A DNA stretch of 64,000 nt. Origin: Opeltia flavorubescens (taxonomy: Eukaryota; Ascomycota; Lecanoromycetes; Teloschistales; Teloschistaceae). Location: contig KE546985.1 of NCBI GenBank assembly GCA_000442125.1, positions 1-64,000 of the forward strand, written 5' to 3'. Both the position numbers and the translations under genes were made by a program. The notes below the pieces were generated by a model that worked only from the letters and a program-made list of their open reading frames with translations, did no database searches and was not told where the DNA came from. Positions 1,431-37,604 of this stretch are shown here, one piece after another (positions within the stretch are counted from its first letter, which is position 1; each line of letters begins with the position of its first letter).

Positions 1431-1435
1431 ATTAA

Positions 1436-1458: not shown

Positions 1459-4400
1459 TATTTCTCGACTTATTATAAAAGGTTATAGATTAGGAAAATA
1501 ACAAAAAAATAAAAAATAAAATATTTATTATTATTATTAATTTTTTTAAAATTTATAAAGATTTATAAAAATCCAAGTCTATTATTTTTAAAATAGATAT
1601 ATTTTTATTAGATAGATTAACCGTTCGAGGACCTAAATTAGTTTTATATAAATTTTAATACAAATAATAAAAAGGATTAGTTTAATAATTATATATTATT
1701 ATCTCGGTTAAAAATTATAATTAGATTTTTTACAATTTTCTATCCTCTTTTAAACCGCGGCGGGATTTTTTTATAAACGAAAATAAATATTATTAACTCT
1801 CGAATCTTTTTAATACCGCGTTTAAAAATATAATAAATTTAAAAATATAAATTTTTAACTAATAATTTAATTTTACCGCGCGGTATTAAATTTCGATATT
1901 TTTGCTAATTTATTAAACGGCGGTTTATAATTTATTTTTTTATTAATATTTTATTTTTATTAAAAAAAATAAAAAAATTATTTTTAACCGCGGATTTATT
2001 AAATATAATTTAATTTTTAATATCTTTTCCCGCAAATAATAATAATTTTAAGCGGAAATATTTTTTTAATAATATATTTTTAATAATAAACTATTTTAAT
2101 TATAATAATTTCCTTTTTTAATATAATTTTAAATTGACCTTTTAATATTTTATAAAGAAATTACTTTAATAAATATAACGAGTTTTTTTTTATTTATTTA
2201 ATTTATACTATCGCTTTAATAAAAATAAACTTTATTTTATTCAACCGATAATTAGAAGTATAATAAAGCTGGGCTTTTTTATATATAATTAAAAAGTTTA
2301 TTATAACCGCTAGAATTTTTTCGATAAAATAATAGAGTTAAAAATCCAAAAAGCCGTTTTATATTAATACTAATTTTAGAATTTCAATATATATTTCTAG
2401 TAGTAAAATAAAGAAGCGTAATATTTAAATTAACTGGGAACCTATTTTAATATTAGAGGTTATAAATATAAAAAACTCGAACTAATTAGCTAATCTATCA
2501 GCGTATAAAAAACGCTAAAAATAGCGAAAAGGGTAAATAGCCCCGATATTATTAAATAATAATATCTACTATCGCTGTATAAATATATAAAGCTATTAAT
2601 TAAAGAAAAAAAATAATCGAATTGCTATAATAAATAATATAAGGTATTAGAGAGCGGAAAAAAAGTAAAATAGTATAAAAATTAATAAACCGAATTTAAA
2701 TATTTCGATATAATAATATATCGTCTTATTTTAATTAAAACGCTAAATAAAGTAGTTTATATTATAATTAATAGCGGTCCCTATAATTCTATAATTAGGG
2801 CGGATTATATAACTAATACTATTATATTATTATAAATATTCCTCGGGGTAAAACTTTCCGTAAATATTTATATACTCGATTTTTTATACTATTTAATAAT
2901 CTAATTTTAAACGGTAAATTTTATATTAGAAACTCCCTTTTATAAATTAAAGATAGGCTATATTTTATTAATATATTCGTTATTATCTAATTACTTTAAT
3001 CTATTAAACTAGAATTGTTTAATAATTTAGAATATAACTATCTTTTTAAAGGCTTTTATATTATTTAAAAATATTTTTTAAATTAAATTTTTAAAAATCG
3101 AATATAGCTATTTTTAAAAATAATACTTTATAGTTATAAATAGCCCTAATATTATTAGATAATAAAATCGGGGATAAAAAAAGGAAATAATAAAATACGG
3201 GCTATATATACCCTAAATTAATAAAAAAATATTCTAAAAAAATTCAAAAGCTTAAAAATAACTAAATAATTAATTTAATAAAAGTCGAAATAAATTTTCG
3301 GGATAAAAAAATCCGGTTTTTAGGAAAGGCCTATTTTTTTAAAATAGATAGAATATAAATTAAAAATTATTAAATTTTTATTTAAAACTTTAATATAATA
3401 GATTTCGATTTATAATTTATATTCGAAAAAGTAAAATAATATAAATATTTTATATATTATAATTATTATCTATAATATAATTTCTTTTAAATAAATTTTT
3501 AGGGTAGTTATATTTATAAATAAAATATTACTAAAATATTTTTATTTACAATTATATAATTTTATTATTTCGATTTTATAGCTAATTGAATTTCTAATTA
3601 TAAAAGGCTGCCGACGAAATAAAAAAAAAAAAATAGCCTTAATATTATTAGGTAATAACGTTTTTAATTTATAAATAGCGCGAATTATTATAATCAAAAC
3701 TTTTTAACTAGAAAATTCTAAATAATAATAAAACTAGTCTTTATTTTTAGAAGTAGAAAAGAACTAATAACATTTAACCGAGTATTCTCGAAGTAATTTT
3801 TTCTATATTTTTACCTTTTAGTATATCGTTTATTATATCTAGAAAAAAAAAAATTATATATTCGATCTTTATTATACCCGCTAGTAACTAGGCTTTATTT
3901 AGCTTATAATAGTTTATAAATCGAATTTTTACTATTTTAACTAGTTTTATAGGCCGGATTTAACTAAATATTTCGTAGATATTCGGATTTTAACCTTTTT
4001 ATATATTTAAAAAAAATTATTATATAATAATTACAAGGACTTTTTAATCGCTTAAAATTAATAAAATAATACCTATTAGAATTTATAGTAGAGATTAAAA
4101 TATTAGAATATTTTATTATATACATTTTATTTATTCTAATTTTTTTTATATATTTTACTAAAAGCGGGAAACTGGTTTAAAAAAAAATTATAAAGGTTTT
4201 ATAAAATTTTTTAATTATTAGAATATTATTAAAGGTTTTTAGTTATATAATATTTAAAAAAATTCGAGGTTTGTAAAAAATTTTTACTAGTAAAAGATCT
4301 TTATACGGCTATTTAGCCGATAAAAATAAAAAAAATCCAATATTATTAGCTAATAAAATTGCTGGTCGCTAGAATATATAATATTTTAATATTATAAAAG

Positions 4401-7400
4401 TAGTAATTTTTAATAAATAACTAATCCTTGAATCTATTTAAAACCGCGACTAGAAATATTATAGATTTTAGTACTATAATCTTCTAAAATTAATAATTCG
4501 AACTTAACTATTCGATCTATAAATTTTACTTTTTTCTTGAAATCTAATTAAATAGCGGTTTATACTTTATTTTTCTATTAATATCTCGTTTTTACTAGAA
4601 AAAACAAAAAAGTTTTCTAATAATTCGGATTTATCGAAAACTATTATACCGCGTTTTATAATAACTATTATAAATTCTATAAAAACGAGTTAAAATAGGC
4701 TTTTATTTTATACTATATATTTCGCTTATTTTAAATTCACGTAATAATTAAAGTAATAAATATTTACGAGTTTATTTATATAAAAAAAAGTATTTTTATA
4801 AAAAAAAGTTTTAATTTATTAAATAGTAGGACCTATTATAATTTTAGTATTTACAGCTAGCCGCGAAAATAGGTAATAGCGATATTTTAATTTTAAAAAA
4901 TAGATTTTATAAAGTTTAAAGGATAAATTTAAAAAAAATTTAAAGGTAAACTTTAATTTAAATTTTTAAAAATAGAAAATAATATAATTTAAAAATATCG
5001 ATTCTAATTTTAAAATTATTTATAAAGTAGAACTATAATTTAATTTTATTTTTATTAATTAAACTCTCCGTTTAAATTATTACTATATTTAATTAGATAG
5101 TAGGTATTATAATAATATATTCGATAAATATAACCTTTTAAAGGCTCGAACTGCTAAATATTTTAAATTTTTCTATATTATAATAGCTTTTTATATTAGC
5201 TATAGCTGTATTAGACTAGACTATAAATATTATAATAATATACTCGATTAATAAAATTCCGGAAAAACGGTTAGAAAAGGTTTTATCCCTAAAAAAAATA
5301 TCGGTTAGTAAAGTATAATAAGGAGTTTCCTTTAATTTCTTGCTTATAAAAATTAAAAAATATTTTTTTAAAAAAGTTTTAATTATTTACTAATTAAATA
5401 AAGGATATATCGATATTATTAAATAATAAAATTATAAAAGCGTTTAACTATAACGGGTATAAAATTATTTAATAATATATTATAATTTTTTTAAATTATA
5501 TTTAAATTTTAAATATAGTATTGAAAATTATTTAAATAACCGCTTTTTATTTTTTTTTTATAAATTTTTATACGTTTTTTATTTTTTTCTAAAATTATTC
5601 TTTATAATCTAACTTTATTTTATTTAATATAAAAATCTAGTATAATATTATTATAACCTTTTTAAGCTATATTTAAAATTCGAAAAAAAATATTAAAAGT
5701 TATTTAAGCGGTAATTATTATAATATTATCTAATATAGTATTTTTTAAAGGCCGATTATTTTTATCGATATTATAGAATTAGATTTAATTAATATTTTCC
5801 TACTTTTTACATTTTATTATCTTATATACAAGTATTACTACCGGGTCGCTAGAATATATAAAATATATATATATATATAAAATCGGAAAAAACGCGATAT
5901 TATTAGATAATAATATTATAATAAAGCGATATTTTAACGGAAACGAATAATAGTAGAATAGGTACTAAAAATTAATAGTAATCGCGACTAGTAATAAAAT
6001 ATTAATAAGATTAATTAGAATTTAATATCGACTATTATATATTTAAAGTATTTATATATTAAAATAAATATCTAATATTTTTTCCGGACTTTTTTATTTA
6101 ATTTTAAACGATTTAGCTAATTGCTATTAGCTATTTAAAAGCTATACCTGCTTTATAATTCGTATACTACTAGCTACCGGGCTGAAAGTTTTAACTTTAG
6201 AAATAAAATTAGTGGTAGGTTTTAGTAAATCCTAATCAGGGGTTATATTATAAAATAATTTAAAGTTAATATTTTTCCGGATACCTAGTTTAATATATAT
6301 AATATCGAGGAAAAAAAGTTTTTTAAATTTACCCGGATTGTAGTATAGTAAATTAGGGTATAAAAAAAAAATTTATTATATTTTTATATCCCTGCTATTA
6401 AAGCTAGCTAATTAAAAAATTTTTTATATATTTATATTAATTATAATATACCTTTCGAATTTAATATATTTTTATACTAATATTATTAACTATTTAAACT
6501 CGATTAATATATTTTCGAAATTATAAATAACCGATAATATTTTAAAATTAATCGTTAGAAGATTTAAATTCCGGTTAATTAGATTTTATATCGAGTAAAT
6601 ATAATAATCTTCGATATTTATTTAAATATCGATTTAAAAAGGTTTAAAATAATAAAAAAACTCTTGTAATTTATCTAAACTAGATTATTAAAAGGTAACA
6701 GCCTGATAAAATCTAAATATAAAAGAATTAAAAAAAGATCGAAATTGGATATTTATAAATATATCTTTAACCGTTATAACCGAGACGGAAGCTATATATA
6801 AAAGCTAGCTAAATAATAAAGGTTGCCCCTAAATATAGATAGATTAATAGAATCGAGGAAATAGTAAAATTAAACTATAAAATCGGTATTAGAAATTAGA
6901 ATAAAAAGATAGGGAAAGAATATCTACTACCGAAAAAGCTTTTATATTATTAGCTAACGATATTTTAAATAATAAGCGGCTGCTAATTAAAAAAAAGGAG
7001 AATAAGCCTAATATTATTAGATAATAATATTTTTTATACTAGGTTTAAAAATTTAAAATAAAAGTTTATTCGGTAAATAATATTAGAGTAATTTTATTAG
7101 GATTTCTTTTTATTAACTGTAGTTAACTAAATTTTAATAGTTTAAAAAATAAAAAAAAAATAATAATAAACCGAAGTTATAAAATAATAGAATTAATATT
7201 ATTTAGAAATTATAATTATTAATTTTTTTAAAGTTATTTAAAAAAGATAAAATCGATATTTAAATTAAAATAAAAAACGGATTATCGGTTAATAAAATTA
7301 TATAAATATTAGAATTCTAGAATCAGCTTTATTTAAAATAATAGTAACTTTATTAGAATCCTTTTATATAGGTTTTAATAAGTTGAAATTTATAAAATAA

Positions 7401-10249
7401 CGAATTATATATAAATAACCGTATAATAGAATCGACGGTTTTTTAAAAAATAATAGAATTAAATTTAATAAATATTTTAAATAGACCTCGAATCTTATAA
7501 TAAATAATTAATAGAAATTAAAAATTAACCAGAATAGATTTAAAAAAAATAGAAAACTTATATAAAATAAATATTCGATTTCTTCGAATAAATTATAGTA
7601 TACTAAATTAGTATAATAGACGAAATAGTATAATAATAATAAAATCTATAATATTAATATAATCTATTTATTTATTATTTATATAAATATATTATCTATA
7701 GTTTTAAATTTATCTATAGCTCTTTTTTATAAATATTTCTTAAAATTTTTGTATTTAATAAATAGCTTATATATTTTAAAAAATAATTTTTTATTATTTA
7801 TTAGTATTTCTAGGAGAATTGGGTTATTTAAGAAAATACTATTATTATAATTTATAAATAGTATAACTATAAAAATTTTAAAAAAGATAATAATATATAT
7901 ATTATAAATAGACTATTTATTATTATAGAATTTAGGAGAAAAGAGTTTTAAAAATCTAATAGTAGATCGGAAGTAGAAAAAAAAAAAAGCCCGATATTAT
8001 TAGATAATAATATTTATCGCGGAACTAAAAGGTATTATATTAAGTAAATAAAATATTCAAAAAAATGGTATATATTAGCGATAAGAACGGTTTATCTCTA
8101 GCTAGATAAATAAGTACGTATTAATTTTATAACTAATTACTATTACTTTACTTTACTTTTTTATTTTAAAAAAAATTATTTTTTAATCGAGCTAATAAGT
8201 TATTTATAAATTTAAATTTATTTATTATTTTTTTCCGTAAACGTTTCTTTAATCTTTTAAATTTAAAAAATTTCTTAATAAATTTAGGGAATTGATATCG
8301 CTTTTATATTTTCAGGGAATCCTAGATATTTAAAGAAATAGTATCGTTATTATTTCCGGGTAGTACTATCCGATAGACGGAGAATAAAATAACCCCTCGT
8401 TTAATATATAAATAAGTAGAATTAATTATTATAAATCTAAAAAAATAGTTTTTTAAAGATATAATAGTAGATTAAAATAATATTTAAAAAAAAAATTTAA
8501 ATTTACGGGATTTATAATATAATATTAGATTATTTAAAAATTCAGGCGTATAAATAATATTATATTTCTTTTTATCGCGTATTAAAATTATATTTAAAGT
8601 AGCAAGTTATAGATATTTATATATATTAGCGTTCGTATAAAAATATATTATACCGTTAATAATAAGAGAAATAGGCAGAAACGCTATAATTATAGGCGAA
8701 AATAATAATAATTAGTATTTAAATAGAAATTAAGCCTAATATTATTAGATAATAAAGTCTTTTATTTAGCTAGAAGGTATTATTCTAGATAAATTTATTT
8801 TTTTAACGATTTCGCTATATATTTTAATAATAACTGGATTATTATCGATTTTAACGATTTCGGTTTAAATTATTAAAATTCCTATCTCTTTAATATTTTT
8901 ATAAAAAAAAATAAAGTTATTTTTCGAAATTCGATTCTTTAACGGCCGATAGCCTTATATAAAAATATAAAAAATAAAAAAGTCTATAATAACTATTTTA
9001 TAATTGCAAAATATATCGAGCGGATAAAAATTAATATAATAAATATAAAAAAAGGCGATAAATTTACTTTAAATATATATAAATTCGATATAATTTAGCG
9101 TTATATTCTATTATAGATATAGTTTTAATAGTATAAAAAATAGCTATAAGCGAAATATTATTATACGGGCTATTAACCCTCTTTATATTATTAGATAATC
9201 GTGCCTGTTTTCCTACGAAGATTATAATATAATATTAGATCGTTTAAAAGTTTAGCCGTTCGATTATTATCGAAATTATTTATAATCTAGAAAACAATAT
9301 ATATTTAAAAGATAATATATTATTTATTTAAATTTTTTTAAATTTATATCCCTATATTAAATAAAGTTTTAATTATATTTATTAAACCGATAAACTTTAA
9401 ATACCCGTTTATATTCAATTTCTTTATAACCGGATAAAATTAAATCCTATTCTTTTTTTATTATAATAATAATACTATTATATAGTTAGTAACTTCTATT
9501 CTAATTAGAAGCGGTAGATATACTAGTATACCCTAGTAGTACTAATTTAAAAGGAAGCCCCGATATTATTAAATAATAATTAATTGTTAGTAAAAATAAA
9601 TATATATAGATTTTTGTATTAAAGTACTTTTAATATAATTTCTTTTATATTTAACCCGCCGTATAAACTATTTAATATAATTTTGGTAATCTAATTTATA
9701 TATATAATTAAGGGGCAGTATTTTCTATACTTTAATTTCAAAAGGTCTAATTATAGATACTAGTACCTAGTAATATACTAGATATAGCCAGTTTTAAAGA
9801 CTATATTATAAATTTAGGTAAATTTTTAAAGTTACTGATTTTATTATATTTTATAATTATTATTTTATTATCGTACTATAATAGGTTTAAAAAAATTATT
9901 CCGCTATTATAATTAGTTATAAATATTCGAATATTTATATAAAAAGATTTACTAATTAATAGTTATAATAATTTTATTATTCGCTAATATAACTATTATT
10001 ACCGCTTTAATAGACTTCTTTCTATTTAATATATAGATAAACCCAATTTATAAATTATCTTTATACTTATATAAGATAAATAAATCCTTTATTTTATATT
10101 TAACCGGTAATTTCCGGTAGCTATTACTAGTTAAAATTACTAATATATATTCTAGTTTTAACCGAAGCCTCCTATTATAATTAATAAATAATAATACCTT
10201 TAATTATTATTAGAATTCGGGAAGATTATAAAAGAGTATTAGTTTTATA

Positions 10250-10860
10250 TAATAATAAAACCTACTAATCGTTTATCGAATAAATTATAGGCTGTAGCTA
10301 TAGGTAATATTAAAAGAAAACCCCCGGTTATTATTAAATAATAACTAACCTATATATTAATATCTATAACGGTAGGTATTTATTTATTTCTAGTCTAGTA
10401 TTTATAGTATAATTTCTTCTACGATCTCTTTAATCTACAAATACCTAAACTATTCTATTTATTTAACTATAGGTAATATCTAGAAAAAAATATTTTATAT
10501 ACCCCCCTTTTAATTAAAGTTATAGATAGTAAAAATATTTTTAGAATCTGGTTATCCTAAGTCGGCGATATCTTTACCGTTGCAGTATATCGGATATAAT
10601 AAAAAGGGTATAAAGGCACTTTTTAATACCCGGATATAATAATTATATTTAGCCCGAGGGATATTTTAATATAATAATCGAACTTAACCCTATTATAAAC
10701 TATTATTTAATATAACGATTAAAAAACCTTTAATTTAAAGATTTTATATATTATTAATTAATATAAACTATTTTAATCTAAAAATAGGAGGATATATTCT
10801 ATTTAAACCCGTTTATTATAATAATTTTATAGTAGAAAAGTAGATTTAAACTATCGGGTA
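10250..10860 (-). pseudogene. RIP-broken reading frame, unknown product
   Basis: Read on the minus strand from about 10,860 down to 10,250, one frame stays open apart from TAA/TAG codons that RIP can make from Gln or Trp. It has good local composition, for example the peptides KISLGLNIIIISGY and VPLYPFYYIRYTATVKISP near 10,570-10,690. It passes through the palindrome at 10,327 without a stop, there reading SYYLIITGG. I recognise no family. A related minus-strand stretch lies at about 19,440-19,560 in unit 2, so the gene belonged to the duplicated block. Ends are uncertain because ATG is lost; introns cannot be excluded. Whether it was ever a gene is inferred from the frame alone. Confidence 0.4.
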
Positions 10861-11275
10861 AGGTTTTAATATAATAACGCTTACTTTATATAATAATATT
10901 TAAATAATACCGAGTATAAAAATTTATATAATATAAAGTTAGTATAAACTTTATACTTAACGATATATTTAAAATTAACCGAAATTTTTATATAAATTTA
11001 GGAAATATATAGGGTTTAAAAATTAATAAAGGTCGAATAATAAAAAAAAAATTAAAAAAATAAAAGTAAAAAAAAAAAATTAAGTCGAAGATATTAAAAA
11101 GGATATATATAGTTAAAATATAATATTAAAAGAATAAAATTATATATTTACTAATCGAAAAGTTATATAAAAACGCTAGTTATAAAAAATTAAATATTAT
11201 TAAAAGTTTATATAGAGCGTATTAAAGTTATAATAAAATTATAAAATAAATATAGAATTTAATATACTAAAGCTT

Positions 11276-13860
11276 CTATATTATTAAATAATAATAACCT
11301 AAAATAGTAAATACGTTTGAAATAACCGCTAAAAGAACCGTTTCTAGAATTAGCGCCGATAGAGATATATATATAAGAGAGAAAGTTTTAATAAATAACT
11401 ATAAAAGGCTAATAATAAATTAAATTATATATATAATAGCGTTAGTATTAAATAGATAAGTATATATATTAAAAAATTTCTTTTTATAAAGATTATATTC
11501 TAGAAGGTAGTTTATTAAATATAAAGCCTAGTACTATCTATAAATAAACCTATAGCTGTAGATAATAAATAGAATATAGATAAAGCGAATATATAAGAAC
11601 GACCNTCTCTTTTAATAATAGTAATTTTTTAAAAAAAGCTATATAAACCTATATAATTTAGTTTAATAACTCGAAAAATCGAAAAAAATATTTAATAGAT
11701 TAGTAGTAGAAAAAACGAATTATATAAAAAAAAAAAAATAGCTTTAAAGCGCGGATATTAATAATCTCGAGTTATAATTTAAACCAGGACGTAAATAATA
11801 TAAAAAAGATTTTATATAAGCGGAGTATCGATAAATATTATATCCGAGTAGGAATACTATATATTAGCTAATATTTTTAAAATTCGAATATTTACTAATA
11901 TAATTATAATAGGGTCGTCCGGGTTATTAAAGCGGTTTATTATTTATTTTTTTTTAGTATTATTATAGTTTAATCGAATTGTTAAAAAGGGGAAGTTTAA
12001 ATATACTAGCTAAATTTTTATAAGCTAATATATTAAAGGCCGTTTATAGAGTATTAATAGTTTATATTTATTTTTAATATAGATATTATAGGCGATTTCA
12101 GCTAGTATATATAATTTACGAGATTTACCGTTTAGATATAACGCCTGGCTTAATTAATTTTATACGCAGTTAGTTAAAACTAGTAAAAGGCGGATATTAT
12201 TAAATAATAATATAGGGTTTAAAAGCGACTAAAAGTAATAGAGAATTTTACCGCGTGCGTAGGATATAGTATATTATATCTGATTAGATTGGAAAATAAA
12301 GAAGCGCTGTAGTTATAGGTCTGAAATTATTTATAAATATTTTAGGTTATATTCGGCTAGGTACTTGTAATAGAGTTAAAGTTTAGGTAGAAATTAATAT
12401 ATACGAGGCGGTAAAGTAGAGCGAGGTTATAAAGCGCCTTATAGGCTTTAACGTCCTTATTTTTACTAAAAATTACTATAGATATATAGTAGATTAGAAT
12501 ATTAATACTTTTAATTTTAATTAAAATTTTTTTTAAACGATTAGCTATTAAGTTAATTAAAATAAATAATTTTGAAATTTAAACGTTTAATTAGCGTTAA
12601 AGAAAGTACCGGTTTATTAAAAGCCCGATTTTATTAGATAATAATATAGTAAAAAAGATAATATATTTACTATAATATATACGTAGCTTTTAATTAAAAT
12701 TCTATATAATAAGCTAAGTAGCTAATATTATAAGAATAATAGATATAGCCTTTAAAAAATTTAAAAATAGTTAAAAGTTTTTATTAACGCGATTTTATTA
12801 AATAACGATATTATAATTAAAGGATAACTACTTACCTAAATTATTCTACAAAAAATAAAGTATTATTAGTAAAACCGAAATCTATAAGATTAATAACTAG
12901 TATATTATAGTAATAGGATAATTTATTAATAGCTATTAAAGCGATTAAAGCTTTTAAATAGCCGATATTATTAAATAACGTTTTTTTTAAGAGCTTGGAT
13001 ATAATATACTGCAGGATTGAATTACTAGTAGAAGAAAAAAAAGAAAATATATAGGGTATATAGAAAAAAATAAAAGATTCCGACGCCGTTATTAATATAT
13101 AAATAGATATAGAAATCGGTAAATATAAAAAAAAAGAAGTAGGAGAAAGAAAAAAAATTTATATATTTCTAATTTAATTAATAATCGCGCTAGTAAACGC
13201 TATATAATATAATATTTATTTAAAAAAAATAATAAATAAAAAAAATAATATTTAAATAAGTACTAAATAAATTAAAGGAAAAAGCTTATATTAACTAGTA
13301 AATACCGCGGTAAAGTAAAAGTTAAAATAAAGTAAAAATAAAAATAATACGAAAAATTAATATATCTCGCTCTATATAAAAATCGGATAAAATATTACTA
13401 AAATTAGATTAAAATAATATAAAGTTTAAACGAAACGGAATAAATATAATATAAAATTTAAATAATTACCGAGTAAATTATTATTAAAAACAGCTATAAA
13501 ATTATCTAGTAATAATATTAGCGATTATTAAAATATTTATAACTGTATTTTTTACAATATTTTAATCTATATTTTTATAAAAAATTATTTAGATATTATT
13601 GGATAATAGGACCTACTCCTATAATAATATTTATAGCTAGTTATAGAGGCAGACTATACCGCCGCTCAGGCCCTAAAAAAAGTATTTTATAAGGTTCGGG
13701 AAAAGAATTTAAAATAGCGTTAGAAATAAAAGCCAACTAAAACTTTAAAAAATATAAAAGATATAATTTAAAAATATTATTTTTAGAATTAAAATTATCT
13801 ATAAAGTAGAGTTATAAAATAGAGTTATTTTAAAAAATATCGATATTATTAAATAATAAG
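11276..13860. repeat. Three-copy module, copy A
   Basis: This is the best conserved part of unit 1, matched at 20,540-27,015 (copy B) and about 30,190-33,030 (copy C). Palindromes at 12,627, 12,790, 12,963 and 13,501 have partners at 25,903, 26,069, 26,242 and 26,823 in B and at 31,496, 31,660, 31,833 and 32,399 in C, with nearly the same internal spacing (166-176 bases between consecutive members of the first three). A and C lack the helicase relic that splits copy B. I identified no gene inside copy A. Confidence 0.7.
11605..11605. other. Ambiguous base (N)
   Basis: A single N interrupts the sequence in GACCNTCTC. Nothing around it suggests a gap of known size. It is probably an unresolved base call in the assembly. 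Confidence 0.9.
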
Positions 13861-13892
13861 ATCTAGTTAAAAAGGAAGAGGGAAATATATTA

Positions 13893-27015: not shown

Positions 27016-27640
27016 TATAGATAGAAGAGATTAGGTAAAAGGCTATAGATTTCAATAGTTTTTATAGGGCTGGTTATAGAATACCTATAATATATAAACG
27101 CTATTATACCTGGGTTTATACTTTTAAAAGGTATTTTTTATAATTTAACTATAGCCTAGGTACGGATAAATAAATATTATAGCTTTTAATAGTCTTCGAC
27201 TACTATATATAAATCGACCGCGGTTGGTTAATAACCGCGTTTATATATACCTATATAATAGTATTTATATTAAAATAACTTTAATTAATTTTTAAGTCTA
27301 AGCTTTTTTTTAAATTAAAAAAGGTACCTATTAAGCGTTTATAGTAAAAAGCGAACTTTAATATCTATTTTAAATAGGATAATAGTAATATATATTATAT
27401 ATTTTAAGGTATAGAAGTATAGTAGTATTAGTATAAAAGAAAAAAAAATCTAGAATAAAATAGTAGATAGGATATAGCGGGAAAAAAAACATCGGAAGTA
27501 TAATTTACTTATATTATTACTCGTCTACTAACCTTTATATATATAAAACCTTTAATAGCTATAAATATTATTATTTAATAATATCCTTTTGGTTCTATTT
27601 ATAGATAGTCGCTTTACTATTTTAAAGTAGTTTTACTTTT
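27016..27640. repeat. Duplicated stretch, pair of 32.5-32.8 kb
   Basis: About 27,380-27,640 (with GTATAGTAGTATTAGTATA, ACTTATATTATTACTCG and the palindrome at 27,563) matches about 32,540-32,800 in the same order. No gene is recognised. The intervening part, 27,016-27,380, holds only short frames; a string with both arms of CGCGGTTGGTTAATAACCGCG at 27,218-27,238 is a potential hairpin. Confidence 0.55.
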
Positions 27641-28290
27641 TTATAATTATTTAACTTTTTAGAAATAGTTATTTAATAAAATCCTTATTTTATTTTCTAG
27701 TAACCTTTTATCTACTTTTTATACGGGATCGCGCTAGTAGGATATAAATAGTAAAGTTTAGCGCGATAAAATTAATCTAATAGCTTTATTTAACCGTAAA
27801 AAGTTGGATAAAAAGTAGAAGTAAAAATTTTAAAACTTTAATATAATAAAGACTCCGGGTTTTAGTTATATATTCTCTCGATTCTTTTAAATTTTACGGC
27901 TAGACCGCGTAAATATATACCTATAATACCTATATAGTACTTTATTATATAAATAGCCTAGTTAAAATATTATATAGTAGATTTTTAGCGCTAAATTCTA
28001 GTAGGATTTAAATATTCGATAAAAGTTAATATATACCGTTTTAATAATATAGAGTCCTAATATCGCTATTAGTTTTTACGCTTATTTAAAGTTCTATTTA
28101 TTTTTCGGGTGGATTATAGTATATTAAGTTTATATAATAATTCTATTAAAACGAAGCTCTAACTCGGTAAATAGCTTGGTAATATTATCTCTGGTTTTTC
28201 CTTATAAATTCCTAATAATTTCTATATAAATTAGGTTATAGAACTTGAAATAATTTATAATTTTACTAATATTGCTGTTTAAAGGCTTAG
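27640..28290 (-). pseudogene. RIP-broken reading frame, unknown product
   Basis: From about 28,290 down to 27,640 a minus-strand frame stays open except for RIP-type stops, with protein-like composition: for example NISKIINYFKFYNLIYIEI, then GKTRDNITKLFTELELRFN (about 28,210-28,150) and KLIAILGLYIIKTVYINFYR (about 28,075-28,015), ending in a Lys/Arg-rich tail near 27,650. The aromatic-rich character could be a helical enzyme or membrane protein, but I recognise no family. The start is not found; upstream exons are possible. It lies between the unit 2 end and the poly-T tract, tail towards the palindrome at 27,563, and has no obvious second copy in unit 3. Confidence 0.5.
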
Positions 28291-29380
28291 AGGGTATATA
28301 TATTTATTATTATAGCTTCTAGTAGCTAGATAAATAAGGAAAATTAATAACGGCTAAATTAATTAAATATATATATATATAAATAAATTAATTGTAAAGA
28401 AAAATCTATAGAGAAATATTAAATAGCCTAGTATTTAGTATAATAGAGCTGATTTCCTAATTAAATTAATACTATTGGGTTAATAGATTTTAGTTTAATA
28501 TACGCCTATAATTCGCTTAAATAATATAAAGATAAAACTATTTATAAATATATAAATTCAAGTTTTATAGGAATATTAATAGGTAAACTACCTAATTATA
28601 TATATAGCTAGCTTATAGCTATATATTGGAATTAATTATATCTAGATATATATTATTTATATAGATTACGCTTGGAATTTATAGATAGCCTATATAATAT
28701 ATTTATTGCGGAAGTTTCCGGCGTTAAATAATACTTTTAGTATACTATTTATTAAATTGCCTAAAGGGATAAATAGTAGTTATAGACTTTATTATATTAT
28801 TATCTACTTATATATAGTTAAATATCTGGTTATTAACGGTAGTAAAAGTTTTAAACCTCGATTTTTTTTATTTTAAAATAATACTACGGAGAGTAAAAAG
28901 AATCCAGGTTCTTTTATATAAGTACCTAACGTTTTAATATTTAGTTATTAAAATACGCCGGTAAGCCTTGTATATATAAAAATAATCTAATATAGATTAT
29001 AGGTATATTATTAATAGGTAGCTGTTTTACTAGCCGAGTTACTATACGATATATAGGCGAAATCTTTTAATTTAATATTAGAAACCTAAGTTTTAATTAA
29101 AATTTTACTTTTTAAACTTGTATTATTTAATAAATTTTAAAAGAATTAATAGTAGTTGTTATAGGAGTTGCCCGAGATACTTTATAGGTAGAAAGGTTAA
29201 TTTATAGATATACGCTAAAATATAGGCTATAATTTTTAAACTTTATTCCTACTTCTTTAACGTTAATTATTATAAAATATTTAGAATAGTTTTTAAACTT
29301 TATTAGTTGTTTATTAATAATAATACTAAATATTGGTTATATCTAGCCTTTTAACGCGGCACGAATATAGTTAGTATAGA

Positions 29381-29382
<2 letters not shown>
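28291..29382. other. No gene assigned
   Basis: This is AT-rich sequence with somewhat more CG, CA and TG than its surroundings (for example near 28,660-28,730 and 29,150-29,170). Short frames exist on both strands but none is long enough or protein-like enough to support. It may hold upstream exons of the 27.6-28.3 kb relic. Confidence 0.4.

Positions 29383-29428
<46 letters not shown>
29383..29428. repeat. Poly-T tract, 46 bases
   Basis: This is an uninterrupted run of T, flanked by GTATAGATC and AGAAGTATTT. A run of this length is rare even here. It may be the poly(A) end of a LINE/SINE-like insertion on the minus strand or slippage; the flanks show no clear target duplication by eye. Confidence 0.85.
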
Positions 29429-29429
<1 letters not shown>

Positions 29430-29432
<3 letters not shown>

Positions 29433-30188
29433 GTATTTACCGTATTCTAAATACTTTAGCTCGTTTATTATACTAGAAGACTTAAAACTCATTAAAGCTG
29501 CGCGAAATAATTAAAAGAAATAGTCTTTAAAATAAGTAAAGTAGTATATATATACCGGTAACGTTTTTACTAGAATAGAATATAAATACGCCTTTCAACT
29601 AATTAATACTATCCTTAATAGGAGATTTTAAAGACTGTTTTCTACTAAAATAGAACTTTTAAATCTAGATCTACTTTTCCGCTAGATATAGGCCTCTAAG
29701 AATAAAAAGATCGCTTATTTTTATATTATTTCTACGCGATAATATATCTTATAAATTCGTTAGTATATACGGCTAAATATATTATAAGATTATTAGAAAA
29801 AAAGACTTTAAAATACTTTAAAGGGCTAGTAATTTATATTTATATTAAAGTTAATCCGGCTTTAGATAATCGCAGCTCCCTATTAGAAATAATAAAAGAT
29901 TTATATATATTCGAAAGTAGTAGTAGCTTTTTAATAATTTACTTTTTAGTAAACTATTTTTTATAATATATAAATACGGCTTTTTATTTATATAATTCGT
30001 TTAGAATACAAGAAATTATTTATTTATTAACCTGTATTTTTTTAAAGGACTTTCTATTTTATTATAATTATTATAGTAGTATAAAAAATAAAGGTAGCGG
30101 ATAAAAAATTAGGATCTACTTATCCTTCGGGATTTATAATCCCGCGATATCTTTTTTTTATTTATAAATAGCTTCTATATTTACTTAA
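29430..30188. other. No gene assigned
   Basis: This is RIP-degraded sequence between the poly-T tract and module copy C. I see no supported frame, RNA gene or repeat apart from AT-rich runs. Confidence 0.4.
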
Positions 30189-30189
30189 A

Positions 30190-33030
30190 TTATTATCTAA
30201 TAAGATTTATATTATTCTATATCGCGGCTTAAAATCCACCTATTTTTATACTTAAATATTTATACTTATTAATTTATATATATAATAGCGTTACTATTAA
30301 ATAAATAGATATATATAATAAAAGTATTCTTCCTTTAAAGAATATATACTTTAAGAATCTACTTAAAATAAAACCTGGTTTCTATTTATAAAAAAACCGA
30401 TAACCGCGGCTAGTAGTTAAAATATAGATAAAGCGAATATATAAAAATAACTATACCTTTAAATACTACTAACCTATTAGAGAATATTATATAAATTTGT
30501 ACGACTTTTTTTAAAAATTTAAAAAATTAAAAAAAAAAAGATCTTTAGCGTATTAATAGTAGAAATCGTAAGTTAGGTAGAAAAAAAAAAGTAATTTAGA
30601 GACGTAGTTATCGATTAAATAAAATATAATCTAAACTAGTATTTAAATAGTATAAAAGATATTTTAGATAAAGGTAAAATCGATAAATAATATATATAGG
30701 TATAAATTTTATAAATTAACGGACGTTTTTAAAATCCGAATACTTGCTAGTATAATTATAATAAAGTTATCTAGATTATTAAAGCCTTCTATTATATTAA
30801 ATTTTTTAGCGTGATTTTAGCGCGACCGAATCGCTTAAAAAGGAAAGTCTAGAAGCTTTAGCTAACTTTATATAAGCTAATATATTAAGGGCGATTTATA
30901 GACTATTAGTATTTTATATTAATATTTAATATATATAAAATAGATAATCGCGGCTATTATATATAACTTTATAAATTTACCGTTTAAATAGTATAAAAGG
31001 TTAAATAAATATTATAAAAAGTTAGCCGAGGCTAGCTTTAGTAGATATTATTAAATAATAAGGTCGGGTTTTATAAAAACGAATAGATATAAGGAGTTTT
31101 ATTAGATATATAAAACCCGGTATATCGGATCCCGTTACTTTAAAATATAAAAAACCGCTATAATTATAGTTTTTAAATTAATTATAAATATCTTTAGCTA
31201 TATTTGATAGAATAGCCGTAATTTAATTAAGTTTAAGGTAGAAATAAATATATATACGATAATAGAGCCCGGCGAGAATATAGCGCGCTTCGCTTATTTT
31301 ATTATTTTTATTACCGCCGGAGGTTGCTATATATAGATAAAAAATAGGAATATTTTTTCTAATCGCTCTATTTACGCTTTTAAGCTCGATTAAAATATAT
31401 TTCGATTAATTAACTATTAAGTTTATTTAAATAGATAATATTAAAAATAAAAATTTTAATTAATATTAAAAGTAGTACTATTATTCTAGTAGGCCGATCT
31501 TATTAAGTAATAATATAATAAAAAAGATAATATATTTATTATAGCGTATATAGAAAGTTTAGCTGAATATTAATATAGTAAACTAGGTAGGTAATATAAT
31601 AATAATAATAGATATATTTTTCGACGAGTTTAATAGGAATAAAAGGTCTTTATTAACGCGATATTATTAGGTGACGATATTATAATTAGGGGGTAGCTAT
31701 TTACCTAAGTTATTTATAAGATATAAAGTGTTATTAGTAATATCGGAATCTATAGAATTAGTAGTTAATATACTATAGTAATAAAATAATCGGTCGGATA
31801 TAATTAGAGCGATTAAAACTTCTAGAAAACTAATAAAGTCAGGTAATAAATTATTAAGGAAGCTGGATATTAAGCTACTATAGGTCTATAGACCAGCTAG
31901 TAATAGATATAATAAATAGTAGAATTGGATTAGTAGTATAAGAAAGAAAAAAAAAAAGTATATAAGGTATATAAAGAAAACAGAAGATTCCGACGCAGTT
32001 ATTAATGTACAAGTAGATATAAAGATTAATAAATATAGAAGGAAAGAAGTAAAAGTAGAAGAAGAAGTTTATATATCTTTAGATTAATAGATAATCGCGC
32101 TAATAGACGCTATAATATATAATACTTATTTAAAGAGGATAGTAAATAGAAAAAATAAAATTTAAATAAATAATAAATAGGTTAAAGGGAAATATTTATT
32201 TTAGTTAATAAATACTATAATAGAATAAGGATTAGAGTAAAGTTAAAGTTAAAAAAATAAAAAGAATTAATATATCTCGCTTAAGATAAAGCTTAAATAA
32301 AGCGACGCTAAAATTAAATTAGGTAAAATTAAAAATAACGAGATTTATAACTTTAAAAAATAATTATTAAATAAAGTACTATTATAAATAGCCACGAAGT
32401 TATCTAGTAATAATATTAGCGATTATTAGGTACGATAGTATATACGCCGAAGTAACCTAAATTAGTTTTTAAACCTAATCCCTACCTAGAGTCTTTAAAT
32501 ATAACTATCGACTATAAAAAACCGAAAGCGAGTTTTAATATATATTCTAATATTTTAATATATAGAGGTATAGTAGCGTTAGTATAGAAAAAGAAAAATA
32601 GTAAAATAGTAGATAGAGTAAAAAGAGTAAAATAGGAGGAATAGCTTACTTATATTATTACTCGCTTATAAATCCTATTCTTTATAAATAAAACCTCCGG
32701 TAGTTATAAATATTATTAATTAATAATATCCTCTAGGTCCTATTTATAAATAGTTGCTTTACTCCTTTAAAAGGGTTTTATTTTCTAGAAGTTACGTTTT
32801 TTTATAGTATTTTCACTCCTTTAAAGTTATTATCTACCGAAATTTTTATTCTATCTTTTATTATAGAAACTATCTGTTTTTTATTAATATTTATATCTTT
32901 ATATTTTCCTTTTATTTCTATAGGGCTTCTTTACTTATTTTAGTTATTATCTAGTAGGATTTTTATTCTACTGCGCTTCGCTATTAAATTTATTAAGGCT
33001 CTACCGAGGTTATTATCTAATAATATCCGC
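30190..33030. repeat. Three-copy module, copy C (unit 3)
   Basis: This third, shorter copy of the module matches 11,400-13,520 and the outer parts of 20,700-26,850. Recognisable shared strings are TATATATAATAGCGTTA (30,277; also 11,432 and 20,686), GCCGAGGCTAGC (31,025; GCCAAGGCTAGC at 22,583) and ATTCCGACGC (31,988; also 13,078). No helicase block is present. No gene is recognised within it. Confidence 0.65.
31660..31681 (+). repeat. Palindrome copy retaining GGTGAC
   Basis: GATATTATTAGGTGACGATA keeps the GGTGA centre that is AGATAA or AAATAA in most copies. With the copies at 111 and 24,160 it supports an ancestral CAGGTGAT centre. Confidence 0.7.
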
Positions 33031-33289
33031 GGGCCTTACTACTTTTTATTTATTATCTTTTTACTATTATTATTAATTATAAATAATAAAAAACTTATCT
33101 TTTAAGCTCTAATTAATTATTTAGCGAGATACTGCGTTTTACCCTAGAGATTCTTAACTCGGATTAATATAGAGGGGGGTGTGTATTAATTTTACTAACT
33201 TCGCTAATTAGAATATATACCGAGGTCTTAGATTTATTACTAATTCTATATATATATACCCTCTATTATCTACGCTAGTAGCGAACTAA

Positions 33290-34908
33290 CTATCTATTTC
33301 GCTGTTATTATTTTCTTTTTACGACCTATAATCGCTACTATAAAGAGGAGTATCTATAGTATTAGTAGGTGTATTATTATTAATAGACCCCTTTATAAAA
33401 TCGATATTATATCTATTTAAAAACTTTTTTACTCTAGTTAAATTATTATCGAGTTGTACGTGGTTAAAGGCGAGAATATAGAGGTACTTATTACCGGTAT
33501 CTATATATAGGATATTATTCTAAACGAGTTTAAATAGGATTTACCGGGTTTTATTATAATTTTTATATAACCTTCGAAGTTCTTTAATCTTTCCTCCTAT
33601 ACTATCTTCTATTTAAATATAATATATAACGGTTTCTATATATATAGTATTAAGGACTACCGGTATAAACTATTTAATATAAATAAAAACAAGCTATATA
33701 CTTCTACTACGGACTTGTATAAAGATCTTTTATTTAATACGGTTAGAATACTCCGTATTAATATTAGCGTTATTATATATAAAGATAATCAGCAGTTTAT
33801 AGAATACGATTTTAGTAAAAGTATTTAGCTATAAGCCCGCTCGATAACTATTAATAGTTTTTTTAATAAAAATAAAGATATACCGAATAAACTAGTAATA
33901 AAATTATTACTTCTAAATATACGGCTTCTTATTATTCTCGCGGTCGAAGATATAAAATAAAACTTTTATATAATTTAGCTAAAGTCTATTAAAGTAGTAA
34001 TTATTAAAGTAATAGCCTCGGTTAAAATCTAGGTTTAGAATTATTAAATAGAAAATTATAATATATAGTTTAAAACTAATAACCCTTTTAATAATTTTAT
34101 AGAAGAGCCCTTTTAAATTATATTTTTACGATTTAGAAATAAAGTATAGGAATAGTCGACGCTCTTCTATAGCCTTCTCGCGAGAAAAATATCATATAAC
34201 GCGATCCGCGAGGATTTTCTATACGCGTTAAATATAAATATAAATTATTATTTTAGTAGCGTTTTTTAAGACTTTAAAAATAGCGAAATTATATTTTTTA
34301 AAGCCGGGTATTAAAGGGGTATTTTTAATTTTAAAGAGGTCGATTTATAATTAAACGAGGATATAATTATAGTAGGTAAAATATTTAGTAATATCGCGGC
34401 GGATTTTAAACTATTATTAAAAGGCGTTAATAAAATAAAAAATATAAAGAGTACCGGGCTTTATATAAAAAAGACCCTTCTAGAGGAACTTATTATAAAA
34501 AAACGAAATTATCCCGGTAAACTACTAGATAGCTTGATATCTAAACCCGTAGCGCGGTTTATTTTTAAATCTAGCCTATATTCGCTACTATAGCTTCTAT
34601 TAGAGTAGTTATAAAATAAGGAATTAAATAAACTTAATCCCTTTAAAAATAAAATAAATAAAACGTATAAAAATAGAAACGGCTACGTTATTAAAGCTTT
34701 ATTATTCGAAAAAAGCGACTTTTAGCTCCGGGGTAGCTTTTATTTAGGCGATTAAAGTTTCTAAAAAAAAAAACTATTAATTAAGTTAAACGCCTATAAA
34801 TTCTATTATTTTTATAGTATTAAGGATTTAAAAGTAACGATAGGCGCTAAAGATTATACTATTAGAATTAGTATTAAGGGTATCGATATAACGGAAGTTA
34901 TTAGCTAA
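33290..34908 (+). pseudogene. Large RIP-broken frame, unknown product
   Basis: A plus-strand frame of about 540 codons runs from near 33,290 to a natural-looking end at 34,905-34,908. It contains about 23 TAA/TAG codons, roughly the Gln plus Trp content of a protein and fewer than random AT-rich DNA would give. Protein-like stretches include IELYVVKGENIEVLITGIY (about 33,450-33,505), ARKISYNAIREDFLYALNI near 34,170-34,230, and KLLDSLISKPVARFIFKSS near 34,520-34,575. I recognise no family and see no catalytic motif. It ends EVIS then TAA TAA inside the palindrome at 34,897, the last four codons being part of it. The opposite frame is also partly open but less natural. It converges with the relic to its right. 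Confidence 0.5.
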
Positions 34909-34919
34909 TAATATCGGGC
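34897..34919 (-). repeat. Palindrome at a convergent gene junction
   Basis: This inverted copy (GTTATTAGCTAATAATATCG then GGC) supplies the last codons and tandem stops of the plus-strand relic on its left. On the minus strand it is read in frame as KSPILLANN by the relic arriving from the right. It is the clearest case of the element lying exactly between two genes. Confidence 0.7.
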
Positions 34920-36714
34920 TTTTTATAAGCGTGGTAAAGCGTAAAGGTTATAGACCGGTAAGTTTATTCTAAATTTCTAATAAGAAGTTAACGAATACCG
35001 CGAGGCTAATATAATACTTTTAGCGTACTATAAAGTTATATAAAACTTCGATAATTAACTTCTAGAAGCTATAGGCTATAGCTAAAGCTTAATACTACTT
35101 CTCTAATATTAATCTATCTAATATACGTAATTTATCCTAAGCCTAAAATAGCTTATACTCGCTATTAAAATTATAGAAGGCATCTAGATCTCTAGTATAA
35201 ATTTTCTATTAACGACTGATTTTATTTTAACTATAGCCTAGAGCTTTATAGTAATCTTTATTAGCTAGAAAACCGTTTTTAACTAGAAAAGCGAAAGCGT
35301 TAAAAATAATATTATATAACTTACTATCTACTAACTCGTTATATATCTAAAAGTTGTTCTATTTATCTAAATATACGAATATAAAAGCTGCGTTTTATAT
35401 TAATTAAAACGGGAAGGAATCTATACGGGTACGCTTAACGGATAAAGTAGGATAAATAAAAATCTCCTTTTAATTATCTAGATAATATATTTTATTTAAT
35501 AGGATAATACTATATAGCTTATTATTAATAAATTACTCGTTGAAGCTAAAGTTTATATATATCTCGCGCGGAAGTAAAATATACTTTAATATATTGAAAA
35601 GCTCGCTTAAATAATAAAAGAAGTTTTCGTATATAATAGCTAAATAGTTATTATATATTTTGAGTTTAAACTTTAGGCCGTAGCTAATAATAATTAAGGT
35701 CGATTATTTATAGCCCGGTATTATTTCAGTAAGACGCGTGACCTTTTACTAGAATAGTATAAGGTAATAGACCGGAATAGGGTAAGAAACGTTTATTAGT
35801 TTCCTCTCGCCTATATTAGCTTTACTATAGATATCTATATAGGAAATAGAATAATATTATAAGATTTTATCGCTATAAATAATATTTAAAGCGGGGCGGA
35901 TAATTTAATTAATCTATAATATTTATTATTTTTTAGTAAGATAGTAGCGGCTTGTTTTTAACTTCTTCTATAGTATATATATAGTCCCTCCTAATATTAG
36001 TAGTTTAAAGAAGAGAATATATATAAAATATTTTTTACTTTTACTCTCGATACTATATTCGATACGGAGTTATATATATAGATCTAATTCTAGGTTCTTA
36101 ATTTTTACCTTTTGGTTTTATATAATAGTTTCTAAATAGAGCGGGGTATAGCTAAATATAAAGGTGGACCTATAGATAGCTAGAGTAGTAATATAGGCGA
36201 TAAAACTATTAACGTCTTATTACTATTAGATTCGAATATTTATTCTAGATATATAATAAAAATACTTTGCTTCGAATTAAGTATAATTTAAAACGGGTAA
36301 TATCTTTTACCCGGCTAGTAATTCTTTCTAAAGTACTTTATAAAAGTTATTATACGTATTTTTATATTTTTAGAATCCTTTTATAAATAGAGGAGAAAGG
36401 AACCGCTATTATTTTAATTTATTCTAATAAAATAATAGATTAATAGAATTCCACTTCTAGGCTAAAGTTAAAAGGCTATTATTAGAGTATATCGATTATT
36501 TTAAAAAGGATTAAACTAGATAAAAGTAATAGATACAGGAACGAACTTATTATAGTAGTAGATAGCTTTTATTCTTTATATAAGTCTATTATTTAAAATA
36601 TAATACCTTTAAAAGTTAAAAAGGAAATCTAGAATATACTATATACGTGGATCCTAATATTATAGTAGGGTTATAGGCTTTATATCCTCCTTTAAATATT
36701 AGCCTGCGGGTTTT

Positions 36715-36795
36715 TTCTACTTTTCCTATTCTTTCTACTCTTCCTGCTCTTCCTACGCTTCCTGCGCTTCCTATTTTTCCTACTCCCTCTTTTTT
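36715..36795 (-). repeat. 9-bp minisatellite coding EAQ/EEQ
   Basis: On the plus strand this is CTTCCTGCG/CTTCCTACT-type nonamers. On the minus strand the units are GAAGCGCAG, GAAGCGTAG, GAAGAGCAG and GAAGAGTAG: a Glu-Ala/Glu-Gln tripeptide repeat in which the TAG units are best explained as RIP-mutated CAG. Confidence 0.8.
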
Positions 36796-37036
36796 AGCTT
36801 TTTATCGTCGCCTTTAAACTTTTTAATGTTACTATTAAAAAATTTATCGTCGCTATTAAAATCCTTTTTAATCGTTTAAGACTCGTTAGGCCTATATTTC
36901 TATTTAGATTCCTCTCCTTCTATAAAAGAAAGAAGGGCGGCCCTACTATTTTTAGTAGTATAGACTCTACTATTAATAGTAGCTTAAAAGTAGCGGAAGG
37001 GATTATATATAAAAGGGAAGGCTATTTCTTTTTTAT

Positions 37037-37120
37037 AATTACTATCTTCTTTATTATTACTATCTTCTTTATTATTACTATCTTCTTCGTTATTACTATC
37101 TTTTTTGTTATTACTATCTA
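37037..37120 (-). repeat. 18-bp tandem repeat coding DSNN(E/K)E
   Basis: About 4.6 units of ATTACTATCTTCTTTATT on the plus strand. The minus strand reads GATAGTAATAAC/TAAA/GAAGAA, an acidic hexapeptide repeat. Unit length is a multiple of three and variation keeps the frame, as expected in a former coding region. Confidence 0.85.
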
Positions 37121-37525
37121 GATCGTTAGTAACCAGGGGAAAAGAATTGGTATAGGGGTTTCGGTTATATATAAAAGAGGCTAGTAAAGGATTTCTTACT
37201 CGTAAGACCTGGCTACTAGCTCGCGTTAAGATAAGCAGACTTAGAAAACTAGAGAGAATATACCCGATCTATATTTGGAACCAGGAACGACCCGGGGTAA
37301 TAAAAGCTATAAGATAGACTATAATATCGTTTATAATATTAAATTCCTCGCTTTCGGTTTTAAATTAAAAAAGATTAAAAGGTAAAATTATAGTCGTTTA
37401 ATTTAAATTTATAGATAATTATTATAAAAAAGAAAGAATTATAGTAGATATAAAAGGCTCCTTAAATATTTAAAATATATCTATAAAAATTAGTATATCG
37501 TTTAATAATTAAATTATTTTTAACG

Positions 37526-37604
37526 GATATTATTAATTAATAATATAGTAAGGCGGTATAGATTAGAGGTGGATATTAACCTAATATTATTAGGTAATAA
37601 TAAT
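37526..37604. repeat. Last two palindromes before the desert
   Basis: Copies at 37,526-37,547 (GATATTATTAATTAATAATA) and 37,582-37,604 (TAATATTATTAGGTAATAAT) lie 35 bases apart and are the rightmost members of the family. They mark the end of the palindrome-bearing block. Confidence 0.75.

Follow-up and report, generated by a model that had tools for sequence, protein, structure and literature searches.

Short palindromes recur within a RIP-mutated, telomere-attached element of Opeltia flavorubescens

The window analysed here, a stretch of 64,000 nucleotides of Opeltia flavorubescens (contig KE546985.1 of assembly GCA_000442125.1), carries about 50 copies of a short palindrome, and we find that their host is a single RIP-mutated element of at least 38.4 kb whose inner boundary is exact at W38,469 (W denotes a window coordinate, and C followed by a number denotes a contig). 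The element is very large and mutated, looks mobile and occurs solely at the chromosome ends of this lichen-type fungus, and the palindrome array looks like a fossil set of its putative protein-binding sites. The interpretation that we favour, while holding it tentatively, is that a giant mobile element, attached to telomeres and since mutated by RIP, carried the palindromes as sites repeated along its interior, putatively for a dimer. The parts of the element referred to below are as follows (coordinates, strand, feature).

1..44,., telomere repeats (AACCCT)n
45..38469,., RIP-mutated telomere-attached element; one or more diverged layers; single inner end found in the window
38440..38469, +, exact inner end of the element; 13 genome copies at ≤1 mismatch, all centromere-facing
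33260..37362, -, coding-like stretch, 3-periodic purine pattern, two frames
11050..13900, +, module A
20370..22970, +, module B (diverged copy)
25840..27700, +, module C (diverged copy)
30100..32840, +, module D (diverged copy)

The element and its inner end

The inner end is present genome-wide in 13 copies at no more than one mismatch (control, 0/2). All 13 face the centromere and lie within 38.5 kb of a contig end, and they are spread over 10 chromosome ends, three of which carry two copies each. Seven copies (one each on C5, C8 and C21, two each on C10 and C15) agree at 59–60 of 60 purine/pyrimidine positions up to W38,469, and the 80 bp past it are unrelated among them, with agreement of 0.40–0.57 apart from a single pair at 0.69. 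The element is stacked head to tail: two joins read at the base level, at W~20,622 (C10) and W~32,749 (C15), place the fixed end on inner parts of a truncated copy of the same element. An earlier reading of the C10 join as a tandem unit of ~18 kb was ruled out by this fixed end on a truncated copy. Among candidate interior homologues of the element's conserved part, the one on C6 is low-complexity AT and the one on C3 a 50-bp match, and both were rejected. The stretch W~1–20 kb may consist of older layers of the element.

Orientation alone is no proof of movement because end-to-end exchange likewise preserves it; we consider it likely that the element moves onto chromosome ends rather than copying by such exchange. 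New copies would join chromosome ends via the one fixed, centromere-facing end, the distal side would be worn or capped by telomerase, and later copies would stack onto worn ones.

The coding-like stretch at 33260..37362 is probably what remains of a gene that has decayed; it is read inwards, away from the inner end, starting ~1.1 kb behind that end, and no homologue of it was found. Starship elements carry a DUF3435 captain gene at one end, read inwards; PF11917 matched nothing here, but it also matched nothing in the control genomes. Trained on 32 ORFs, a purine-pattern coding model gives the conserved part of modules A, C and D a weak coding signal on the - strand. A Pfam scan of both strands of W1,001–36,001, with stops read as X, returned no family, a weak negative because a stretch outside the element also gave none. 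Reverse transcriptase (PF00078) has 40 matches in the genome, 38 of them with stops, and 0 in C21:1–38,510, where the element may lack its distal part. Helicase_C (PF00271) has 83 and 0, respectively, in the same comparison, where a helicase domain would be expected of a telomere-linked helicase repeat; both genome searches do recover stop-bearing copies elsewhere. No transposase was found in the element, and Rfam and tRNA scans of the window gave no hits.

The palindromes: form, number and distribution

The motif is ~22–30 bp long and mostly has one strong shoulder, the stronger being on the left in 32, on the right in 13 and equal in 3 of the 48 sites listed below, which span W114–37,601. 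A matrix grown from the core given in the preliminary description found 50 places above a score of 13 (0, 0 and 1 in three simulated sequences), and the two weakest (1338 and 6946) are omitted from the 48. Strand is that of the stronger arm.

114..129, +, palindrome core, CA and TG kept
2548..2563, +, palindrome core
3151..3166, -, palindrome core
3644..3659, +, palindrome core
4342..4357, +, palindrome core
5415..5430, +, palindrome core
5899..5914, +, palindrome core, same place on C1 and C4
7013..7028, +, palindrome core
7996..8011, +, palindrome core
8741..8756, +, palindrome core
9565..9580, +, palindrome core
10330..10345, +, palindrome core
11280..11295, +, palindrome core, module A
12196..12211, -, palindrome core, module A
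12630..12645, +, palindrome core, module A
12794..12809, +, palindrome core, module A
12967..12982, +, weaker palindrome, homologue of 26245; outside the 48
13501..13516, -, palindrome core, module A
13845..13860, -, palindrome core
15361..15376, +, palindrome core
16476..16491, -, palindrome core
17077..17092, +, palindrome core
18136..18151, +, palindrome core
18688..18703, +, palindrome core
19306..19321, +, palindrome core
20543..20558, +, palindrome core, module B
21023..21038, +, palindrome core, module B; eroded in A and D
21712..21727, +, palindrome core
22605..22620, -, palindrome core, module B
24162..24177, +, palindrome core, CA kept; tandem 57-bp unit here at other ends
24266..24281,., palindrome core
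25033..25048, +, palindrome core
25209..25224, +, weaker palindrome
25907..25922, +, palindrome core, module C
26072..26087, +, palindrome core, module C
26245..26260, +, palindrome core, module C
26826..26841, -, palindrome core, module C
26995..27010,., most symmetric palindrome copy, CGATATTATTATATAATAATATCG
27567..27582,., palindrome core, module C
30189..30204,., weak palindrome
31047..31062, -, palindrome core, module D
31499..31514, +, palindrome core, module D
31663..31678, +, palindrome core, module D, TG kept
32399..32414,., palindrome core, module D
32712..32727,., palindrome core, module D
33009..33024,., palindrome core
34897..34912, -, palindrome core, within coding-like stretch
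37529..37544, +, palindrome core, 167 bp beyond coding-like stretch
37586..37601, +, palindrome core, last

Twelve core columns are identical in 44–48 of the 48 sites, and across 1045 pairs of unrelated sites the flanks are not similar past ~20 bp, save two columns at -26/-27. The flanks had been described as differing from copy to copy, which holds between unrelated sites and fails for about a dozen sites copied through duplicated modules; roughly three dozen independent palindrome places lie inside the element. The first copy, 70 bp from the telomere repeats, retains both CA and TG (ATTATCAGGTGGTAAT), and CA and/or TG is also retained at 24162 and 31663, whose homologous copies read TA, in keeping with the proposed RIP-corrected core, a CAG.TG form since collapsed. 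That the palindrome survives RIP, as had been said, is partly trivial: it would stay palindromic because CA..TG becomes TA..TA on both arms, and the shoulder appears to offer no CA/TG for RIP to lose.

The preliminary count of about 50 stands up to simulation and shuffling. With up to three mismatches ATTATCAGGTGATAAT has 20 matches in the window, whereas 100 dinucleotide shuffles gave a mean of 2.73 (sd 1.81) and never more than 9. A symmetric 30-column matrix, built from 47 of the listed sites and used at a threshold of ≥12, finds 51 places in W1–38,510, a count that is not independent because the matrix was trained on these sites; the zero region and the other chromosomes are independent. 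It finds 0 places in W38,511–64,000 and 0–3 in each of 20 first-order Markov sequences. The palindrome had been placed in the first 37.6 kb only, which is right as to the inner limit; at the outer side the first copy is already at 114.

Across the whole genome CGATATTATTAGNTAATAATATCG at ≤3 mismatches gives 54/55 matches against 1/2 for the reversed pattern. The exact core with one CGG shoulder has 42 genome matches (41 places, 11 ends), none of them farther than 35 kb from a contig end, and the 38.5-kb contig ends together make up 5% of the genome; the motif is subtelomeric, as the preliminary description had it. The bare 16-base form ATTATYAGRTRATAAT is less specific (16/17 against 8/10) and interior in 4 of 33 places, and with one mismatch the shouldered form also has a few interior places, at a high control rate (167/170 against 61/54 at ≤2 mismatches). 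Nor are the sites spread evenly through AT-rich DNA: 66.6 kb of it on nine other contig starts without long element matches holds 3 sites scoring ≥12, although these controls keep some similarity to the element (two ~150 bp matches on C14; 100–116 bp on C7, C19 and C20), and 25.5 kb of AT-rich window DNA holds none. RIP does drive sequence towards TTATTA/TAATAA strings, but with the simulations, the AT-rich controls and the reversed pattern all against it, the idea that the array is chance or a RIP artefact of AT-rich DNA is refuted, and we give it next to no weight. The motif is confined because the carrier element sits only at chromosome ends, which disposes of the suggestion that it was recruited to subtelomeres independently. 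A search of IMG/VR finds no match to the full palindrome; a CAG form of reduced length occurs once in each of 8 IMG/VR contigs, which we take as chance rather than as viral relatives. At the level of titles and abstract openings, no description of the motif was found in the literature; its short letter forms matched only for two 11-base forms, and among the matches listed the subjects are unrelated by title.

The array and its symmetry are older than the divergence of the modules, and the palindromes hold position across modules A–D. Sites are eroded in a sister module in 2 of 8 site groups, and there are no clean empty sites in modules A–D. For sites picked from one module, mismatches (transversions and gaps) over the surrounding 22 bp numbered 24/396 against 51.5 ± 10.8 in shifted windows (2/5000 as low, with overlapping pairs); in a non-overlapping subset they numbered 9/154 against 20.2 ± 6.2 (112/5000 as low), a modest constraint (P about 0.02). 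A 57-bp palindrome-bearing unit varies in number (2 on C11, 3 on C10 and C6), and gaps of 164–176 bp between palindromes recur; except between modules, the sequences of these intervals are unrelated, so they are not tandem copies. A fixed reading frame through the palindromes was ruled out by flat codon-position purine frequencies.

Explanations for the array

In the interpretation that we favour, the element would have carried a double-stranded DNA site of 22–30 bp about every 0.8 kb, each with two inverted half-sites (CCGATATTATCA) around two free bases for a putative dimeric protein, one half-site usually being strong and the other half tolerated, and RIP would later have converted the central CA/TG to TA. 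For a dimeric protein as the putative reader we put the chances at about even. In favour of double-stranded sites are the positions held across diverged modules, the lowered mismatch count around the sites, the lack of compensatory change between the arms and the scarcity of sites in the coding-like 4.1 kb. As a guess, the sites might serve, for instance, to silence the element, to pack it or to keep it at chromosome ends. The E-box, CANNTG, is the site of bHLH dimers; the RIP-corrected centre here is similar, being CAGGTG-like with free middle bases inside a palindrome, but conservation extends 8–12 bp further on each side. Against a dimer site, 22–30 bp of near-identity is long for an ordinary regulatory protein, the CAG.TG form has no genome excess (8 on each strand, where the reversed pattern has 15), and one site (34897) lies within the coding-like stretch. 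A bolder version, which we regard as unlikely, would have a giant fungal telomere-attaching element without recognisable reverse transcriptase carry a palindromic code (one site per ~0.8 kb, with the nucleosome-like 164–176 bp gaps) by which a putative dimer targets, holds or silences it.

A somewhat unlikely alternative, but the strongest rival, is that the palindrome is itself a mobile micro-element, REP- or MITE-like, of 22–30 bp with a one-sided tag (GCCCGAT), which multiplied in the ancestral element ahead of the divergence of the modules and was then frozen by RIP. The same short sequence does stand in about three dozen unrelated contexts, its strong shoulder is one-sided as is the one-end tag of prokaryotic REPs (PMC3733652), one copy lies within a coding-like stretch and the 57-bp unit varies in number; yet missing copies in the modules look eroded rather than cleanly empty, the core changes less than adjacent DNA, and exact shouldered copies are restricted to chromosome ends. 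Improbable in our judgement is that the palindromes are break or attachment sites, cut or opened so that ends break or receive new copies there. The joins at W~20,622 and W~32,748 lie 64 bp and about 21 bp to the inner side of palindromes 20543 and 32712, both missing from the receiving copies, but these are two joins only, and telomere additions at W~27.4, 34.8 and 37.1 kb lie ~160, 100 and 390 bp from their nearest palindromes, which is chance-like. We think it more improbable still that they mark gene ends, either as bidirectional transcription terminators or as RNA hairpins, as the end signal of the preliminary description would. The palindromic form, the scarcity of copies in the coding-like 4.1 kb (one against 5.1 expected, P about 0.04) and a coding-like stretch that stops 28 bp short of a palindrome would fit; arm covariation, however, is absent, with 441 Watson-Crick cells between arms against 453 ± 7.5 for shuffled arms and thus no compensatory excess, and the outer core pair is changed on one side in 26/48 sites and on both in 0/48. 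As borders of 3-periodic intervals the palindromes do no better than shifted positions (89.3 against 86.3 ± 11.1; 38% of shifts as high), and several palindrome pairs are merely 57–176 bp apart.

Comparison with known systems

As described in passages of PMC5537684, HeT-A/TART/TAHRE of Drosophila and the Terminons of bdelloid rotifers, the latter up to 40 kb with extra ORFs, resemble our element in having one fixed centromere-ward end, head-to-tail stacking and distal wear. Unlike it, they carry reverse transcriptase, of which none was found here, and the host here has telomerase-type repeats; those passages describe no palindrome array for the Drosophila or rotifer telomere elements. Unlike Athena elements as covered there, the joins read here contain no telomere repeats. 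The SPE2 arrays bound by PfSIP2 in Plasmodium falciparum (PMC2829057) are likewise a two-part motif array confined to subtelomeric repeat DNA, but organism and motif differ, and for those arrays binding and the link to heterochromatin were measured. Bacterial REPs (PMC3733652) are also many-copy palindromes of 20–40 bp with an unpaired one-end tag, some within genes; they differ in being genome-wide, often RNA hairpins and in some cases accompanied by a RAYT transposase, whereas the palindromes here belong to a single element family and show no covariation.

RIP can thus leave a palindrome legible while stripping its central CA/TG. Should the palindrome turn out to be a micro-element, then a fungus would have a REP-like element. 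The internal array offers a ready probe for the putative reading protein. Few organisms are known to carry very large elements of the kind that attach to chromosome ends, and a fungal one of at least 38 kb beside telomerase repeats would lengthen the list.

Palindrome copies and their distribution

The assembly comprises 34,397,415 bases in 23 contigs, of which C21 supplies the window (its bases 1–64,000), and AACCCT occurs at least twice within the first 300 bases of 18 of the 20 contig starts fetched; the window itself opens with (AACCCT)n, and the starts of contigs C2 and C7 are N. Among named relatives, a gene in the GC-rich start of C9 is closest to a protein from a Gyalolechia MAG (71% identity), which places the host probably among lichen-forming fungi near Teloschistaceae. 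CA+TG falls to 6–34 per 2 kb in the window, as after heavy RIP.

At up to three mismatches, the core pattern matches the window 20 times, compared with 2.73 ± 1.81 in dinucleotide shuffles, and an iterated matrix yields 50 places, of which the two weakest were dropped to give a list of 48. A symmetric matrix built from the window sites finds 51 places scoring at least 12 in positions 1–38,510, none in 38,511–64,000, and 0–3 in 20 Markov sequences. Across the genome, a 24-base form gives 54/55 matches versus 1/2 for the same pattern read backwards, and the core with one CGG shoulder (up to two mismatches) gives 167/170 versus 61/54. None of the 42 exact matches to this shouldered core (41 places, 14 matches in the window) lies more than 35 kb from a contig end, and 11 ends carry them. 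A weaker 16-base form gives 16/17 versus 8/10, with 4/33 places interior. We conclude that the palindrome array is real, and the preliminary description was right that some 50 copies exceed chance, cease beyond about 37.6 kb and are subtelomeric. They are not spread evenly over AT-rich DNA, as nine AT-rich contig starts without long matches to 1–38,600 (L026, L027, L031, L032, L034, L035, L037, L039 and L040) hold 3 sites scoring at least 12 in 66.6 kb of AT-rich DNA.

Sites on the remaining contig starts
L021 (C1) and L024 (C4): about 2.5 kb of the element (5.5–9.6 kb of the window); 2 and 1 sites, respectively, one on each being place 5899
L030 (C10): more of the element; 17 sites in 9.9 kb
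L036 (C16): more of the element; 8 sites in 9.4 kb
L025 (C5): more of the element; 2 sites
L028 (C8): more of the element; 4 sites, one in GC-rich DNA
L022: N
L023, L029, L033: not AT-rich; 0 sites
L038: not AT-rich; 1 site

Age, form and possible role of the palindrome

Modules A–D (starts 11,050, 20,370, 25,840 and 30,100) are diverged direct copies within the element. Groups 12196, 12630, 12794, 13501 and 27567, with their partners, keep the site in every module clearly covering the place, and group 11280/20543 has it in two modules; the site is eroded in module D for group 12967/26245 and in modules A and D for site 21023. Sites chosen in one module show 24/396 mismatches in the partner, versus 51.5 ± 10.8 in shifted windows (9/154 versus 20.2 ± 6.2 for a non-overlapping subset); counted per site in both directions with bad rows kept, the figure is 39/748. 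The palindromes are old. Differing flanks had been reported, and this holds for unrelated sites, which share nothing past about 20 bp except columns −26/−27 (0.63–0.71), but fails for the module copies, estimated at about a dozen of the 48, so that some three dozen places count as independent. The most conserved module part lies between palindromes (13,023–13,442, 26,313–26,607 and 31,907–32,352 in modules A, C and D), with windows 97–98% alike in purine/pyrimidine letters and A versus D ungapped over 420 bp.

The stronger shoulder is on the left at 32 sites, on the right at 13 and equal at 3, and no covariation between the palindrome arms was found. Because places 114, 24162 and 31663 keep CA and/or TG, a CAGGTG-like centre before RIP is probable. 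Four independent intervals of 164–176 bp separate palindromes where about 0.5 are expected, a range chosen after the fact. The palindrome is probably recognised as double-stranded DNA and not as a hairpin, with a micro-element as a serious rival.

An element with a fixed inner end

Written in a purine/pyrimidine alphabet, and so insensitive to transitions, the window shares long runs with C5, C6, C8, C10, C11, C15 and C16, in identical orientation to the telomere. In every copy read base by base, the shared sequence ends at 38,469. Over the last 60 positions, 59–60 agree in seven copies (C5, C8, two on C10, two on C15, C21), beyond which these diverge (80-bp similarities of 0.40–0.57, one 0.69). 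Past the inner end, the sequence resumes at about 20,622 on C10 and about 32,749 on C15, each a second, truncated copy. The element's last 30 bases occur at 13 places with at most one mismatch, 11 of them exact, all 13 facing the centromere and at most 38.4 kb from a contig end; five further matches at three mismatches, four interior, are at control level (0/2).

Inner-end places (at most one mismatch)
Left ends: C5 (2), C8, C10 (2), C16, C21
Right ends: C3, C6, C10, C11, C15 (2)

On C3, the inner end lies just 671 bp from the right contig end, so that copy is almost wholly worn away. Telomere repeats are joined directly to the element at differing points, near 37.14 kb (C8), 37.12 kb (C10), 27.4 kb (C16) and 34.8 kb (C5). 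Receiving ends at the two stacked joins lie 64 bp and about 21 bp inward of a palindrome, whereas the three telomere joins are not so placed. Since a 24-base search finds no second inner end in 1–38,469, the first 20 kb may belong to this element too, or else to older layers.

A purine-phase HMM calls only 21,171–21,692 and 33,260–37,362 coding-like. Read on the − strand, the latter starts some 1.1 kb behind the end of the element, and a five-end RIP-corrected consensus leaves two of its frames mostly open. Neither Pfam nor protein searches gave it a homologue, and it contains 1 palindrome where 5.1 are expected.

Other sequence observations
33,260–37,362 (−): decayed gene-like stretch whose N/K/E/D/S repeat is an array of 18-bp tandem units (37,027–37,119)
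30,163–37,433 against four other ends: among 885 mixed C/T columns, T follows at 490 and A at 182; with CA exhausted, C-to-T change seems to turn to CpT next
43,954–44,005: tandem GCTGGCAACTGGTAGG, unusually GC-rich with CA/TG kept, within a RIPped region
51,749–55,985: large diverged inverted repeats (51,998–52,195 with 54,537–54,734, and others), probably a RIPped transposon
C5, 1,949,944–1,950,126: match to a helicase C-terminal domain, interrupted by stops and 1.6 kb short of the contig's right end, possibly a RIPped telomere-linked helicase

Exchange between chromosome ends could have copied the element and would likewise preserve its orientation, but seven different flanks meet it at one common base, and this favours movement onto the ends. 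Elements known to attach to chromosome ends share four marks (PMC5537684): their inner end is fixed, they keep a single orientation, copies stack, and the distal side wears away. The window element is like them, as described there, in all four. The confinement of palindromes to the subtelomeric 37 kb is real, but is better put as an array bound to one telomere-attached element ending at 38,469. Because its inner end is fixed and oriented, what would otherwise pass for a duplicated block is likely a giant telomere-attaching element.
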